Source of the DNA: Pseudomonas sp. B20(2017) | Lineage (GTDB): Bacteria; Pseudomonadota; Gammaproteobacteria; Pseudomonadales; Pseudomonadaceae | Assembly (NCBI RefSeq): GCF_002113125.1 | Contig: NZ_NEJP01000009.1 | Coordinates: 186,001-250,000, forward strand | Reading direction: 5' to 3' | Length of the DNA: 64,000 nucleotides | Shown: piece by piece, positions 34,516 through 41,548 of the stretch | Numbering within the stretch: position 1 is the stretch's first letter | Layout: each line of letters begins with the position of its first letter | Program-made: the position numbers and the translations under genes | Notes under the pieces: generated by a model | Seen by the model: the letters and a program-made list of their open reading frames with translations, nothing else | The model's database searches: none | Told to the model about the DNA's origin: nothing

Positions 34516-38042
<3,527 letters not shown>

Positions 38043-38104: not shown

Positions 38105-38821
38105 TCACTCCCCTGCCGCCACACTCTCCAACCGATACCCATACCCATAAATCGTCAGCAACTGCCAACCCCGATCCGCCGTCAGCCCGAGCTTGTTGCG
38201 CAGGCGATAGATATGAGTGTCCAGCGGTCGCGACGTGGACATTTCTTCGTGGGGCCAGAATCGTTCGTACAGGTAATCCCGTGACAGCGGTCGGCCGAGG
38301 TTACTGAACAGGCAATGGGCGAGGCGATACTCGCGCTCGGTCATGACGATCGGTTTCCCGTCGCGGGTGACGGTCAGCTCGGCGTCGTCGAACACCAGGT
38401 CGTTGAAACGCAGGACGTCGGCCGGGGCGCTACGTTGCAGGCTGTGTCGACGCAGGACTGCCGCCACGCGGGCCTTCAGTTCATTGGGCCGAAACGGCTT
38501 GCTGACGTAGTCGTCGGCTCCGGCATTCAGGGCCTGGACGATATCGCTTTCACCGTCGCGGCTGGTCAGCATGATGGCCGCCGGAGGGGCTTCCATGTGT
38601 TCGCGGGTCCAGCGCAGCAGCGCCAGGCCGGTAAGGTCGGGCAATTGCCAATCAAGGATCAGCAGGTCGAAGGTTTCCCGGCGCAGCTGTCGCAGCAGGT
38701 CTTCTCCACTTTCGAAGCTGTGCAGTGACCAGGGCTGCCCTCCGGCCTCTGCCATTTTTTGCAGGGTCTGCTCGACCCGTCGCAGTTCGGCGGGTTCATC
38801 GTCCAGTATCGCAACGCGCAT
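38105..38821 (-). CDS. OmpR-family response regulator
   Basis: This 238-residue protein has a receiver domain with acidic pocket DD at residues 7-8, phosphoacceptor Asp57 in LLILDWQLPDLTG and the conserved Lys in SKPF near 106. A winged-helix DNA-binding domain from about 135 ends in PLDTHIYRLRNKLGL. The start is the ATG before RVAILDDEP; a longer frame has no family support. It is divergent from the adjacent histidine kinase, its probable partner. The target genes are unknown. Confidence 0.92.
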   Translation of the reverse strand: MRVAILDDEPAELRRVEQTLQKMAEAGGQPWSLHSFESGEDLLRQLRRETFDLLILDWQLPDLTGLALLRWTREHMEAPPAAIMLTSRDGESDIVQALNAGADDYVSKPFRPNELKARVAAVLRRHSLQRSAPADVLRFNDLVFDDAELTVTRDGKPIVMTEREYRLAHCLFSNLGRPLSRDYLYERFWPHEEMSTSRPLDTHIYRLRNKLGLTADRGWQLLTIYGYGYRLESVAAGE

Positions 38822-38987
38822 ACGCGGTGGTTCCTTGTCGCTCGGGCAATGGATGCCGGTCTGATCGGCTGACTCCATGCAGTGAAAGTAAGCGGCACGC
38901 CGTGGGGTGAGCCGCTATGATTCTTCGGGTCTACGTCCTCAGACCGGCTGCCTATGAAACCATTCAACCCGCCCTGCCCTGTTTCCC

Positions 38988-40529
38988 ATGAATAACCAGC
39001 GCCGACACGAAAGCCGTGTACCCAGCCAGGTTCAGCGTTTGTTCCGGCAACTGGTGCGCGAGTGGGTGTGGATAAGTCTAGTGCTGTTGCCGCTGACTGC
39101 ACTGCTTTCCTGGCGAGCGCAGATCAATTTGCATGACCCGGCGCCAGTCGCTGGCGCGATGTTGTCGATTGCTCTGGTGGCTTGCGTGTTGGGATTGCTT
39201 CTGTGGCGCCCGCGTCTGGCAATCTGGGTGACACTCGGCGGAATTGCCTGCGTGCTGTTGACGAGTGCAGGCCTGGCTGAAATACGCCGTTGGTGGTCAC
39301 CCACGCCTGCGGCGCTGGGCATGCTGTTCGGTTATCTGATCTGGAACTGGCGACGCCTTAGCGTGGTGCTGACCTACTTCGGCTGGGAGCTGGCGCGGCT
39401 GGACAGCGAACCGAAAGTTTTCCCTGAACGACGTCGGGCGCAGTTTCCCAGCGCCGACCGCTTGCAGGGGCAGATCATGGCGCTTGAGCAAGCCATGAGT
39501 CGTACCCGTGATACCCGCCGATTCATTGCCGACGGGCTGGAGTATCTGCCGGTCGCAACGCTGATCAGCGATCCACGGGGGCAAGTCTTGTTGGGCAACC
39601 GCAAGGCCCGGAGCCTGTTCGATCACACTCTGGTGGGCGAGGATGTGCTCGATCAACTGGCGAGCCTGGGCTATCCGGAGTTATCCACAGATCCTCGCCC
39701 GTCGCTCTCCGAGCTGCCTCTGCTGGAGTTTCGTGATCACAAGGAACGCAGCCTGCGCCTGGAGCGTGCTGCGTTGTTGCCCGTCGATGGCGACCTGCCG
39801 ATCGGCTGGCTCCTGAGTCTCACTGACCTGAGCGCCGAACGCGCCGCCGAGGAACAGCGTGGCGTGTTGCTGCGCTTTCTGTCCCATGACCTGCGCGCCC
39901 CTCATTCGGCGATTCTTGCCCTGCTCGAGGTACACCGGCATCAGACGGGAACAGATTCGCCGCTGTTCGAACAGATTGAGCGCCAGGTACGCCGGGCGCT
40001 GGAACTTACCGACGGCTTCGTTCTGCTGGCCCGGGCCGAATCCGAGGCGTATCAGTTTCAACCAAGCCTGTTCGGGATGCTGGTCATGGATGTGCTGGAT
40101 CAGGCACTGCCCATCGCCCAGCAAAAGCGCATCGAGCTCTTGAGTGACATGGACGAACAATCCCACGAGCGGCTGATCCTGGCCGATCAGGGCTTGCTGA
40201 CCCGCGCACTGTTCAACCTGCTGGAAAATGCAATCAAGTACAGCCCGGCCGGATCAACCGTCGATCTGCGTGTCAGTTGCCACAACGACTGGCTGCGTTG
40301 TGAACTGACCGATCAAGGCAAAGGCATCGCGGCAGAGGAGCTGCCCGACCTATTCAGCCAGTACCGGCGCTTTTCTTCTGCACAGGGCATCGACGGCGTG
40401 GGCCTGGGGTTGTCGATGGTTAAAGCCGTGGTGGATCACCATGGCGGCCGAATTGAATGTCTGAGCGTGGTCGATCAAGGCACGACATTCCGTGTGGAAC
40501 TGCCGCTGATCGCTGAAGAGCAGGCATAA
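38988..40529 (+). CDS. Membrane sensor histidine kinase
   Basis: This 513-residue protein has about four closely packed N-terminal membrane helices between residues 26 and 125 (WVWISLVLLPLTALLSW, AMLSIALVACVLGLLLW, LAIWVTLGGIACVLL, LGMLFGYLIW) with very short loops. A coiled linker, a PAS-like region at about 185-270, and HisKA with His300 in FLSHDLRAPHS follow. The HATPase has N-box LLENAIKYS and GVGLGLSMV. The membrane-to-kinase half resembles CHASE2-type kinases, but no CHASE2 sensor precedes it. It is divergent from the response-regulator gene. Confidence 0.9.
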   Translation: MNNQRRHESRVPSQVQRLFRQLVREWVWISLVLLPLTALLSWRAQINLHDPAPVAGAMLSIALVACVLGLLLWRPRLAIWVTLGGIACVLLTSAGLAEIRRWWSPTPAALGMLFGYLIWNWRRLSVVLTYFGWELARLDSEPKVFPERRRAQFPSADRLQGQIMALEQAMSRTRDTRRFIADGLEYLPVATLISDPRGQVLLGNRKARSLFDHTLVGEDVLDQLASLGYPELSTDPRPSLSELPLLEFRDHKERSLRLERAALLPVDGDLPIGWLLSLTDLSAERAAEEQRGVLLRFLSHDLRAPHSAILALLEVHRHQTGTDSPLFEQIERQVRRALELTDGFVLLARAESEAYQFQPSLFGMLVMDVLDQALPIAQQKRIELLSDMDEQSHERLILADQGLLTRALFNLLENAIKYSPAGSTVDLRVSCHNDWLRCELTDQGKGIAAEELPDLFSQYRRFSSAQGIDGVGLGLSMVKAVVDHHGGRIECLSVVDQGTTFRVELPLIAEEQA

Positions 40530-40686: not shown

Positions 40687-41466
40687 TCAGACAGCGATCT
40701 GATCGTTCGCAGCCGGTGCCTGAGGGGCCGGAGGCAGCGAGCCCATTTCTCGTTGCGTTTTCTCGTTCCACGCCTGCACCCGGTCATTCAGATCGGCGAT
40801 GGCGCGCGGGCCACTGCCCTCGGCGTACATCGGCTCACCGATGACCACGGTAATCACACCCTGCTTTTTACCCCAACCAATTTTCGGCCAGAACTTGCCG
40901 GCATTGTGTGCAATTGGTAGCACCGGAAGCGCCGCATTCACCGCCAAGGCGCTGCCACTGCGGGAAAACTTGCCGATAGTGCCATGAGGAACGCGAGTGC
41001 CTTCAGGGAAGATCAGCACCCAGACATCGTCCTTGAGCAACTCATCACCTTTCGCCGCGACCTGCTTGAGGGCGGCTTTCGGGTTGTCGCGGTCAATCGC
41101 GATCGGCCGCAGCATGGCCATCGCCCAGCCGAAGAATGGCACATACAGCAATTCGCGCTTGAGCACTTGGCTCAAGGGCGAGAAATAAGCGGAGAGAAAG
41201 AACGTCTCCCAGGTGCTCTGGTGGTTCGATTGAATCACGCAGGGCCGGTCAGGCACGTTTTCCGCGCCTTTGATTTCGTAACGGATACCGAGGAACACCT
41301 TGGTCAACCACAAGGCGCAACGACACCAGTACACGTTGATGAAGCGATAGCGCGCCTTGAACGGCAGAAAGGGCGCGATAAAAAAGCTCAGGCTGCACCA
41401 CAGCAGAGCGGTGGTGCCCAGCAGCAGGTAAAAGAGGAAAATTCTGATGGCCTGCAGTATCGACAT
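40687..41466 (-). CDS. plsC: 1-acyl-sn-glycerol-3-phosphate acyltransferase
   Basis: This 259-residue LPLAT-family enzyme makes phosphatidic acid at the inner membrane. The N-terminal hydrophobic helix (IRIFLFYLLLGTTALLWCSLSFF) is followed by the catalytic NHQSTWE (an HX4E variant of HX4D) near residue 80, the substrate motif FPEGTR near 155 and IPIAHN-type block IV. The start is at MSILQAIRI; an upstream ATG adds 15 residues without support. It follows gmhB by 82 bp. Confidence 0.92.
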   Translation of the reverse strand: MSILQAIRIFLFYLLLGTTALLWCSLSFFIAPFLPFKARYRFINVYWCRCALWLTKVFLGIRYEIKGAENVPDRPCVIQSNHQSTWETFFLSAYFSPLSQVLKRELLYVPFFGWAMAMLRPIAIDRDNPKAALKQVAAKGDELLKDDVWVLIFPEGTRVPHGTIGKFSRSGSALAVNAALPVLPIAHNAGKFWPKIGWGKKQGVITVVIGEPMYAEGSGPRAIADLNDRVQAWNEKTQREMGSLPPAPQAPAANDQIAV

Positions 41467-41548
41467 GGCGACGTTTACCGTTACGGGCAATGCCCGACTG
41501 TTCAAGCGCACTCCCGATCAATCCCTGGTCAGGAACTTCAGAAGTACT

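Follow-up and report, generated by a model that had tools for sequence, protein, structure and literature searches.

A CHASE2-less histidine kinase and its OmpR-type regulator between gyrB and plsC in Pseudomonas, a probable reduced form of a three-gene cassette and candidate regulator of PNAG synthesis

The two-component pair described here occupies the gyrB–plsC interval in a 64,000-nucleotide stretch of Pseudomonas sp. B20(2017) (contig NZ_NEJP01000009.1, positions 186,001 to 250,000; hereafter, the window), and the closest described systems combine a CHASE2 kinase with a FecR-domain protein. The BiofilmReg operon of Burkholderia contaminans comprises a regulator, a LysM-FecR protein, a CHASE2 kinase, and a DUF4136 protein, and a strain in which the regulator of this operon is interrupted is without biofilm (PMC5192318). 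The available part of the same paper describes P. aeruginosa PA4035–PA4036 as a FecR-domain protein and a CHASE2 kinase and calls the recognition target of CHASE2 unknown as of 2016; the words pga, PNAG (poly-N-acetylglucosamine), and polysaccharide are absent from its main text. One PAS domain is listed for PA4036 at 432–537 (PMC8694187). In Sinorhizobium meliloti, CHASE2 is the outer input domain of CyaD1, CyaD2, and CyaK, which are cyclases rather than kinases (PMC5498481, PMC13001267), and a CyaD1 construct without CHASE2 makes cyclic AMP (cAMP) constitutively (PMC5498481).

The pair in the window is divergent and consists of an OmpR-type response regulator (positions 38,105–38,821, minus strand) and a membrane histidine kinase of 513 residues (38,988–40,529, plus strand), both where a first-pass annotation of the sequence had located them. 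The full-length Pseudomonas cassette resembles BiofilmReg in having a regulator, a FecR-domain protein, and a CHASE2 kinase; the window retains an OmpR-type regulator beside the kinase but lacks both fecR and CHASE2. Also unlike in BiofilmReg, the Pseudomonas regulator is divergent, the cassette lies at gyrB–plsC or beside pga, and LysM was not found in the three Pseudomonas FecR proteins scanned. PA4035–PA4036 is likened to the cassette by description; PA4036, unlike the window kinase, has CHASE2, and PNAG genes were not found in the P. aeruginosa group according to the available part of a survey of these genes (PMC7716237). The pair is most likely a reduced three-gene cassette and a PNAG regulator that now operates without its FecR–CHASE2 input, the regulator being predicted to bind a short DNA box upstream of pgaA.

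The alignments show the window kinase to be a descendant of a CHASE2 kinase of about 770 residues whose gene occupies the gyrB–plsC site elsewhere in Pseudomonas. Among 57 genomes searched, there were 16 orthologues beside the window's own, ten of which align from residues 1–3 at 72–95% identity and six only from residues 36–57, with five of the latter in open frames of 760–775 residues and one in a frame of 584. Outside the short clade, the window kinase is closest to CHASE2 kinases (open frames of 760–778 residues), with 58–70% identity over the common part among the rows listed and 45% in the most distant case, genome G062. A full-length kinase of 767 residues (locus L012) carries CHASE2 (PF05226) at residues 39–325 with 184.9 bits; in the alignment of the window protein with the 767-residue kinase, the N-terminus and helix 1 match, about 254 residues are gone, and the match resumes before helix 2. 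Because the missing stretch is internal, CHASE2 was cut out in frame and the gene was not shortened from its start. The first-pass annotation had correctly seen a relative of CHASE2 kinases that lacks CHASE2, but it ascribed the absence to a late translation start just before the first helix. Instead, the N-terminal segment and first membrane helix are kept (residues 8–40, positions 39,009–39,107, from the alignment and hydropathy), and the excision junction falls at about residues 38–56 (39,099–39,155), the point at which relatives have the extra CHASE2-bearing stretch. A second CHASE2 deletion (G031, G157) has different break points and keeps both ends of the CHASE2 region.

A Pfam scan of the window kinase found no CHASE2 (PF05226) at E up to 1, and the window's genome (G000) has no CHASE2 match at E ≤ 1e-8. 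The lack of a CHASE2 match in the protein would suit a short histidine kinase of the ordinary sort, with no relation to CHASE2 proteins, but this explanation retains practically no probability: the kinase shares the identity given above with CHASE2 kinases at the same locus, and the alignment, which matches either side of the gap and takes in helix 1, refutes it. The outcome named beforehand as the contrary one, best homologues among ordinary short kinases, thus did not occur.

The kinase was counted at E ≤ 1e-80 in 398 Pseudomonas genomes, with matches sorted by match start and open frame. It is present in 172, as a short kinase in 76, as the separately deleted in-frame version in 2 (G031 and G157), and at full length in 94, three of which (G307, G327, and G380) have a split kinase. 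In a tree of 141 rows built on the kinase core and the regulator, the 51 short rows form one clade (Shimodaira–Hasegawa-like approximate likelihood ratio test, SH-aLRT, 99) beside full-length kinases mostly with fecR, while the two separately deleted rows group together (100) among kinases many of which have lost fecR. Omitted from the tree set are L012–L017 (short flanks; their genomes are mostly present via other loci), L018–L020 (distant), L144, and L145; the codon set additionally omits L099 and L143. The genomes of L144 and L145, G327 and G380, are nevertheless counted among the 94 full-length genomes and the 68 with fecR described below. Loci L021–L100 overlap in part with loci carrying G handles, so that locus counts (149 in all; 98 full-length loci with the box, L144 and L145 included) are not numbers of distinct genomes, which are those from the 398-genome sample.

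Within the short clade, the pairwise ratio of nonsynonymous to synonymous substitution rates (omega) is 0.057 for the N-terminus and helix 1 (residues 8–38), 0.136 for helices 2–4, and about 0.09 for the linker and kinase core. Because omega is low outside the junction (about 0.06–0.14), the short kinase is kept by purifying selection. These values are difficult to square with a decaying pair, in which the losses of fecR, CHASE2, and the box would be steps to the loss of the system; so are the presence of the short kinase in 76 of the 398 genomes, the conservation of its kinase motifs in those aligned, and the retention of the pgaA box in short-kinase genomes. Decay is thus very improbable, although several pair-less species are nested among short-kinase species in a tree of plsC and a frameshift divides the P. 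cyclaminis kinase (L099/L143). The nested kinase-less genomes (G108, G059, G079, G128, G067, G070, and G005, at forks with 87–97 support) have, by reason of that nesting, probably lost the pair, and deep-branching species without the pair may never have had it.

In L099 (P. cyclaminis MAFF 301449) and L143 (G307), which appear to be one record, a full-length kinase is frameshifted within CHASE2 and fecR was not found. The apparent kinase frameshifts of L144 (G327) and L145 (G380) accompany a split gyrB and are, for that reason, read as sequencing errors.

The second component missing from the window is the FecR-domain gene. In the full-length loci read in detail, the regulator and kinase are separated by about 1.4–2.3 kb holding this gene (PF04773, 62.5 bits), the product of which has a hydrophobic N-terminus resembling a signal peptide; in some full-length loci (L075), the gap is about 0.4 kb and fecR is missing. 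At E ≤ 1e-25, fecR was found in 68 of the 398 genomes, all of them with a full-length kinase (68 of 94; in two pieces in G017, G111, G204, and G327), and in none of the 76 short genomes, the 2 separately deleted ones, or the kinase-less ones. Among 149 loci read directly, all 51 short and both separately deleted loci are without fecR, and the full-length loci divide into 67 with the gene, 22 without it, and 7 with a fragment. Since these seven loci (L034, L037, L041, L042, L047, L052, and L069, the last perhaps an assembly gap) keep only a fragment, fecR has probably been lost repeatedly. In G375, an apparent IS21-type transposase pair (L157:3670–6042, recognized by eye) breaks the 3′ end of fecR, a recent loss of the gene, and the kinase behind it keeps CHASE2.

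The CHASE2–fecR neighbourhood extends beyond Pseudomonas, where 17 of 73 CHASE2 genes have a FecR domain no more than 5 kb away, compared with 0.49 expected by chance. This count comes from 39 genomes of the class, hand-picked from the 80 of 143 with CHASE2 among the matches listed; they are mostly those with the strongest CHASE2 matches, and some genomes with many matches were left out. A broader proposal, offered tentatively and with somewhat more doubt than belief, is that FecR-domain proteins are the general periplasmic input to CHASE2 receptors and that one branch lost FecR, CHASE2, and the regulator's box, giving a two-gene PNAG system that needs no outside ligand and is kept by selection across dozens of species.

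A connection to PNAG is suggested first by gene order. Most of the kinase loci examined are at gyrB–plsC (one of 17 labelled elsewhere, L091, is actually at gyrB, with plsC past the end of the stretch read). Ten genomes with the kinase away from this site were followed: G006, G058, G062, G065, G091, G113, G162, G190, G355, and G385. In seven (G006, G065, G091, G113, G162, G190, and G355), pgaA comes immediately after the kinase, on the same strand; G385 has pgaC-, pgaB-, and pgaA-like genes after the kinase on the opposite strand, pgaA is distant from the kinase in G062, and it was not found in G058. The order at L245 is a DUF945-like gene, the regulator (minus strand), fecR, the kinase, pgaA, pgaB, pgaC, and pgaD, with fecR and the kinase assigned by Pfam, pgaA and pgaC by NCBIfam, and the rest by resemblance. 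In the window's genome, a DUF945 gene adjoins pgaABCD on another contig without the cassette (L241; Pfam, with NCBIfam for the four pga genes).

When the kinase tree is rooted on G062, cassettes outside gyrB–plsC are at its base and those at gyrB–plsC form one group (SH-aLRT 97); the rooting depends on a single long branch, and the program gives a warning that long branches come together at this point. Because the cassette is elsewhere in the deepest rows, mostly (of those checked) beside pga, the pair probably arrived at gyrB–plsC, the cassette having moved away from pga. The first-pass annotation had taken the pair for an insertion between gyrB and plsC, and arrival at this site is the part of that view that probably holds; a stray insertion in one strain does not agree with a kinase found in 172 of 398 genomes.

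The second indication is a 14-base box, AATTGTTCAGATTC, which lies upstream of the regulator and is common to the full-length loci. Within three mismatches, it precedes the regulator at 98 of 98 full-length loci (35 with none, 61 with one, and 2 with three) and at both separately deleted loci, but at only 2 of the 51 short ones. The best match in the regulator–kinase intergenic region of the window (38,822–38,987) has 6 mismatches, and the window's genome has a single exact copy, which is found 154 bp upstream of pgaA. Among the 47 pgaA upstream regions read, out of 156 genomes with both kinase and pgaA, 44 have the box within three mismatches at 132–157 bp, and it is present in short-kinase genomes too. 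G207 has it with 4 mismatches, and it was not found in G006 and G190, where pgaA follows the kinase; pgaA also follows the kinase in G065 and G113, in which the box is present. Inside pgaA, the best matches have 4–6 mismatches, and at seven pgaA loci with the box, none of 200 shuffles equalled the box match. The box was likewise not found before pgaA in G100 and G328, which have pgaA without the kinase, but this is not independent support because the plsC tree puts G100 in a group with G006 and G091, and G006 is also without the box.

In 298 genomes, the 14-mer was found without mismatch 41 times, spread over 40 genomes. Regulator/fecR promoters account for 26 of these copies, regulators lacking fecR for 2, and pgaA for 9, with 4 elsewhere, so that 37 of 41 are at the regulator or pgaA. 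The reversed pattern was not found in these 298 genomes. Position, orientation, and specificity together suggest that the regulator binds the box.

The four exact boxes elsewhere (G021:C90:33449, G194:C6:232054, G212:C11:733640, and G290:C82:24644) may be further targets or chance occurrences; in G021, a pgaA match was not found and the exact box lies within an open reading frame (ORF). G032 has a second, one-mismatch box between regulator and fecR (C1:3888045–3888058), about 390 bp upstream of fecR and oriented as the first. A one-mismatch version, GATTGTTCAGATTC, occurs in many genomes; this GATTG version encodes the first residues (MNLNNQP) of a small conserved protein and was left out of the regulatory sites. 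The context was viewed at 10 of the 12 loci read, with the exact box in its place at three of the 12.

An alternative account of the box is that it belongs to another regulator controlling both the cassette and pga, in which case the co-occurrence of kinase and pgaA would mainly reflect P. fluorescens-group ancestry and the targets of the cassette's own regulator would lie elsewhere. The short clade, which keeps the regulator and has mostly lost the box before it, would fit such an arrangement, and most matrix clusters of P. ogarae F113 are under AmrZ (PMC10850567, in the part available). On the other hand, 39 of the 40 exact-box genomes carry the kinase (all but G290), the box is oriented alike with respect to fecR–kinase and to pgaA, and pgaA is directly behind the kinase in seven of the ten genomes with the cassette elsewhere. 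Control by a different regulator is therefore unlikely, though it draws further support from the distribution of pgaA. With pgaA matched at E ≤ 1e-60, 156 of the 398 genomes have both genes; the kinase occurs without pgaA in 16, pgaA without the kinase in 2, and neither in 224. Relatedness inflates these co-occurrence counts.

Several observations weigh against a PNAG regulator derived from a FecR–CHASE2 system, two of which also favour the alternative just described. The pgaA match is absent in 12 of 76 short-kinase and 4 of 94 full-length genomes, and because of these 16 kinase-bearing genomes, PNAG may not be the sole target. In a sign test on a plsC tree of 85 genomes, about 3 supported independent pairs agree and 0 disagree (p 0.25), which is not significant. 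The same plsC tree, which stands in for the species tree, does not unite the short-kinase genomes: the full-length G376, G241, and G104 are interspersed with them, at forks that are weakly supported. As for FecR, 26 of the 94 full-length genomes are without a fecR match, so CHASE2 persists without fecR, and only two clean CHASE2 deletions were found, both on lineages without fecR, so that few events underlie the tie between CHASE2 deletion and fecR loss. A relaxation of selection on CHASE2 once fecR is gone is a trend only: the ratio of CHASE2 to core omega is 2.0 with fecR (15 rows) and 2.9 without it (11 rows), with a bootstrap ratio of 1.39, a 2.5–97.5% range of 0.85–2.31, and a share of 0.09 at or below 1. 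In S. meliloti, according to the available parts of the sources, the FecR-domain gene smc02177 is close to cyaD1 and is not needed for plant-signal perception (PMC5498481), and the CHASE2 cyclases respond to a plant protein via the outer-membrane protein NsrA (PMC13001267). Among the later sources consulted, this is the only signal given for CHASE2.

The PNAG survey, in the part available, places PNAG genes in most P. fluorescens subgroups and not in the P. jessenii, P. asplenii, P. aeruginosa, P. putida, and P. syringae groups (PMC7716237); the P. jessenii kind may account for the short-kinase genomes in which pgaA is missing. Neither sensor nor histidine kinase appears as a term in the survey's main text. 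In the literature searched, which covers few subscription journals and was seen in part, no two-component PNAG regulator of the P. fluorescens group was found, nor any link between CHASE2 and pgaA or between FecR and pgaABCD.

Under the favoured reading of a reduced PNAG cassette, the ancestral cassette would have comprised an OmpR-type regulator, a periplasmic FecR-domain protein, and a CHASE2 histidine kinase. Deep-branching cassettes, in most of those checked, stand beside pgaABCD, which directs synthesis of the biofilm exopolysaccharide PNAG; most members of the P. fluorescens group have the cassette at gyrB–plsC and pgaABCD elsewhere, with its own copy of the box. When complete, the system would take its input through the periplasmic FecR protein acting on CHASE2; the regulator, once phosphorylated by the kinase, would then exert its effect through the box, both at its own locus and at pga. 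On one branch of the kinase tree, that of the ancestor of the window's lineage, both fecR and CHASE2 were lost, the excision fusing helix 1 to helix 2; the regulator's own box is gone as well, while the pgaA box, kinase, and regulator were kept. The short kinase most probably still phosphorylates the regulator, which would act at the box some 150 bp before pgaA.

With both FecR and CHASE2 gone, the kinase is expected either to be constitutive or to take its input from the membrane helices or the cytoplasmic linker; on the simplest reading, it no longer awaits an outer ligand. The engineered CyaD1 without CHASE2 is a laboratory counterpart of the natural excision in the window's lineage, and since that construct makes cAMP constitutively, CHASE2 may act as a brake. 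If the broader proposal on FecR given above is true as well, a gated, self-regulated PNAG switch became a two-gene system, and the window's lineage is a natural experiment. The genomes compared here point to a candidate target operon, marked by a DNA box that is short and specific, and to a candidate partner of CHASE2 in the periplasm; their two natural CHASE2 deletions can be contrasted with full-length relatives.

Intramembrane-sensing histidine kinases have membrane helices linked by very short outer loops. The window kinase shares the short outer loops, but unlike those kinases, it has reached this form by loss of a large sensor domain. It may be an intramembrane sensor, or have gained a new membrane partner, its helices sensing the envelope or another protein, much as the first-pass annotation had proposed; either would be compatible with a pga target and would differ from the preceding scheme in signal only. 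Its helix and linker segments are conserved, as such a role would lead one to expect, but they are about equally conserved in full-length kinases with CHASE2, so that conservation alone is no proof of sensing. A new partner gene in place of fecR was considered and rejected: the extra genes between gyrB and the regulator differ in the four short loci read (an amino-acid permease in L134, a DinD-like gene in L116, and others in L119 and L126, named by eye), and hence there is no common replacement partner. L134–L140 have a gap of similar size, of which L134 alone was read. Overall, sensing within the membrane or through a new partner is possible but rather unlikely.

The remaining features of the pair are those of a response regulator and a sensor histidine kinase. 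The regulator (238 residues, start MRVAILDDEPAE) has a receiver and a winged-helix domain (Pfam Response_reg and Trans_reg_C), which makes it an OmpR/PhoB-type response regulator. Its listed ORF spans 38,105–38,878, and the start was set at 38,821 because relatives begin at MRVAILDDEP; the phospho-acceptor is predicted to be the Asp in LILDWQLPD. In the kinase, helices 2–4 with short loops occupy about residues 54–128 (39,147–39,371). Three helices exceed the hydropathy threshold used (22–40, 54–72, and 77–95), and a fourth, at about 108–128, falls below it; the loops measure about 4–13 residues and are short, as had been noted at the outset. A conserved linker/PAS-like region follows at about residues 180–285 (39,525–39,842), then a HisKA domain with H300 in SHDLRAPHS (39,858–40,046) and a HATPase_c domain with N, G1, and G2 boxes (40,185–40,508), both assigned by Pfam and motifs. 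With H, N, G1, and G2 motifs all present, the protein is a HisKA-type sensor histidine kinase. Of the PAS–HisKA arrangement read from the sequence earlier, HisKA is borne out by Pfam and PAS is not, as no PAS model matches the window kinase and PAS_4 was seen only in two relatives, at scores short of the Pfam cut-off. Neither the loss of fecR nor the connection to pga nor the box can be seen from the window alone.

The left neighbour, identified like the right by synteny, is gyrB (ORF at 35,469–38,042, plus strand, the start of which may not be that of the gene), and the right neighbour is a plsC-like acyltransferase gene (ORF at 40,687–41,511, minus strand). Comparison of this gap across Pseudomonas, which the first-pass annotation had suggested, places most kinase loci here and reveals variation where the cassette is absent: among 20 loci without it (L161–L180), gyrB lies beyond the stretch read in 9 and about 0.3–7.4 kb from plsC in 11, and the gap seems to be a general insertion site.

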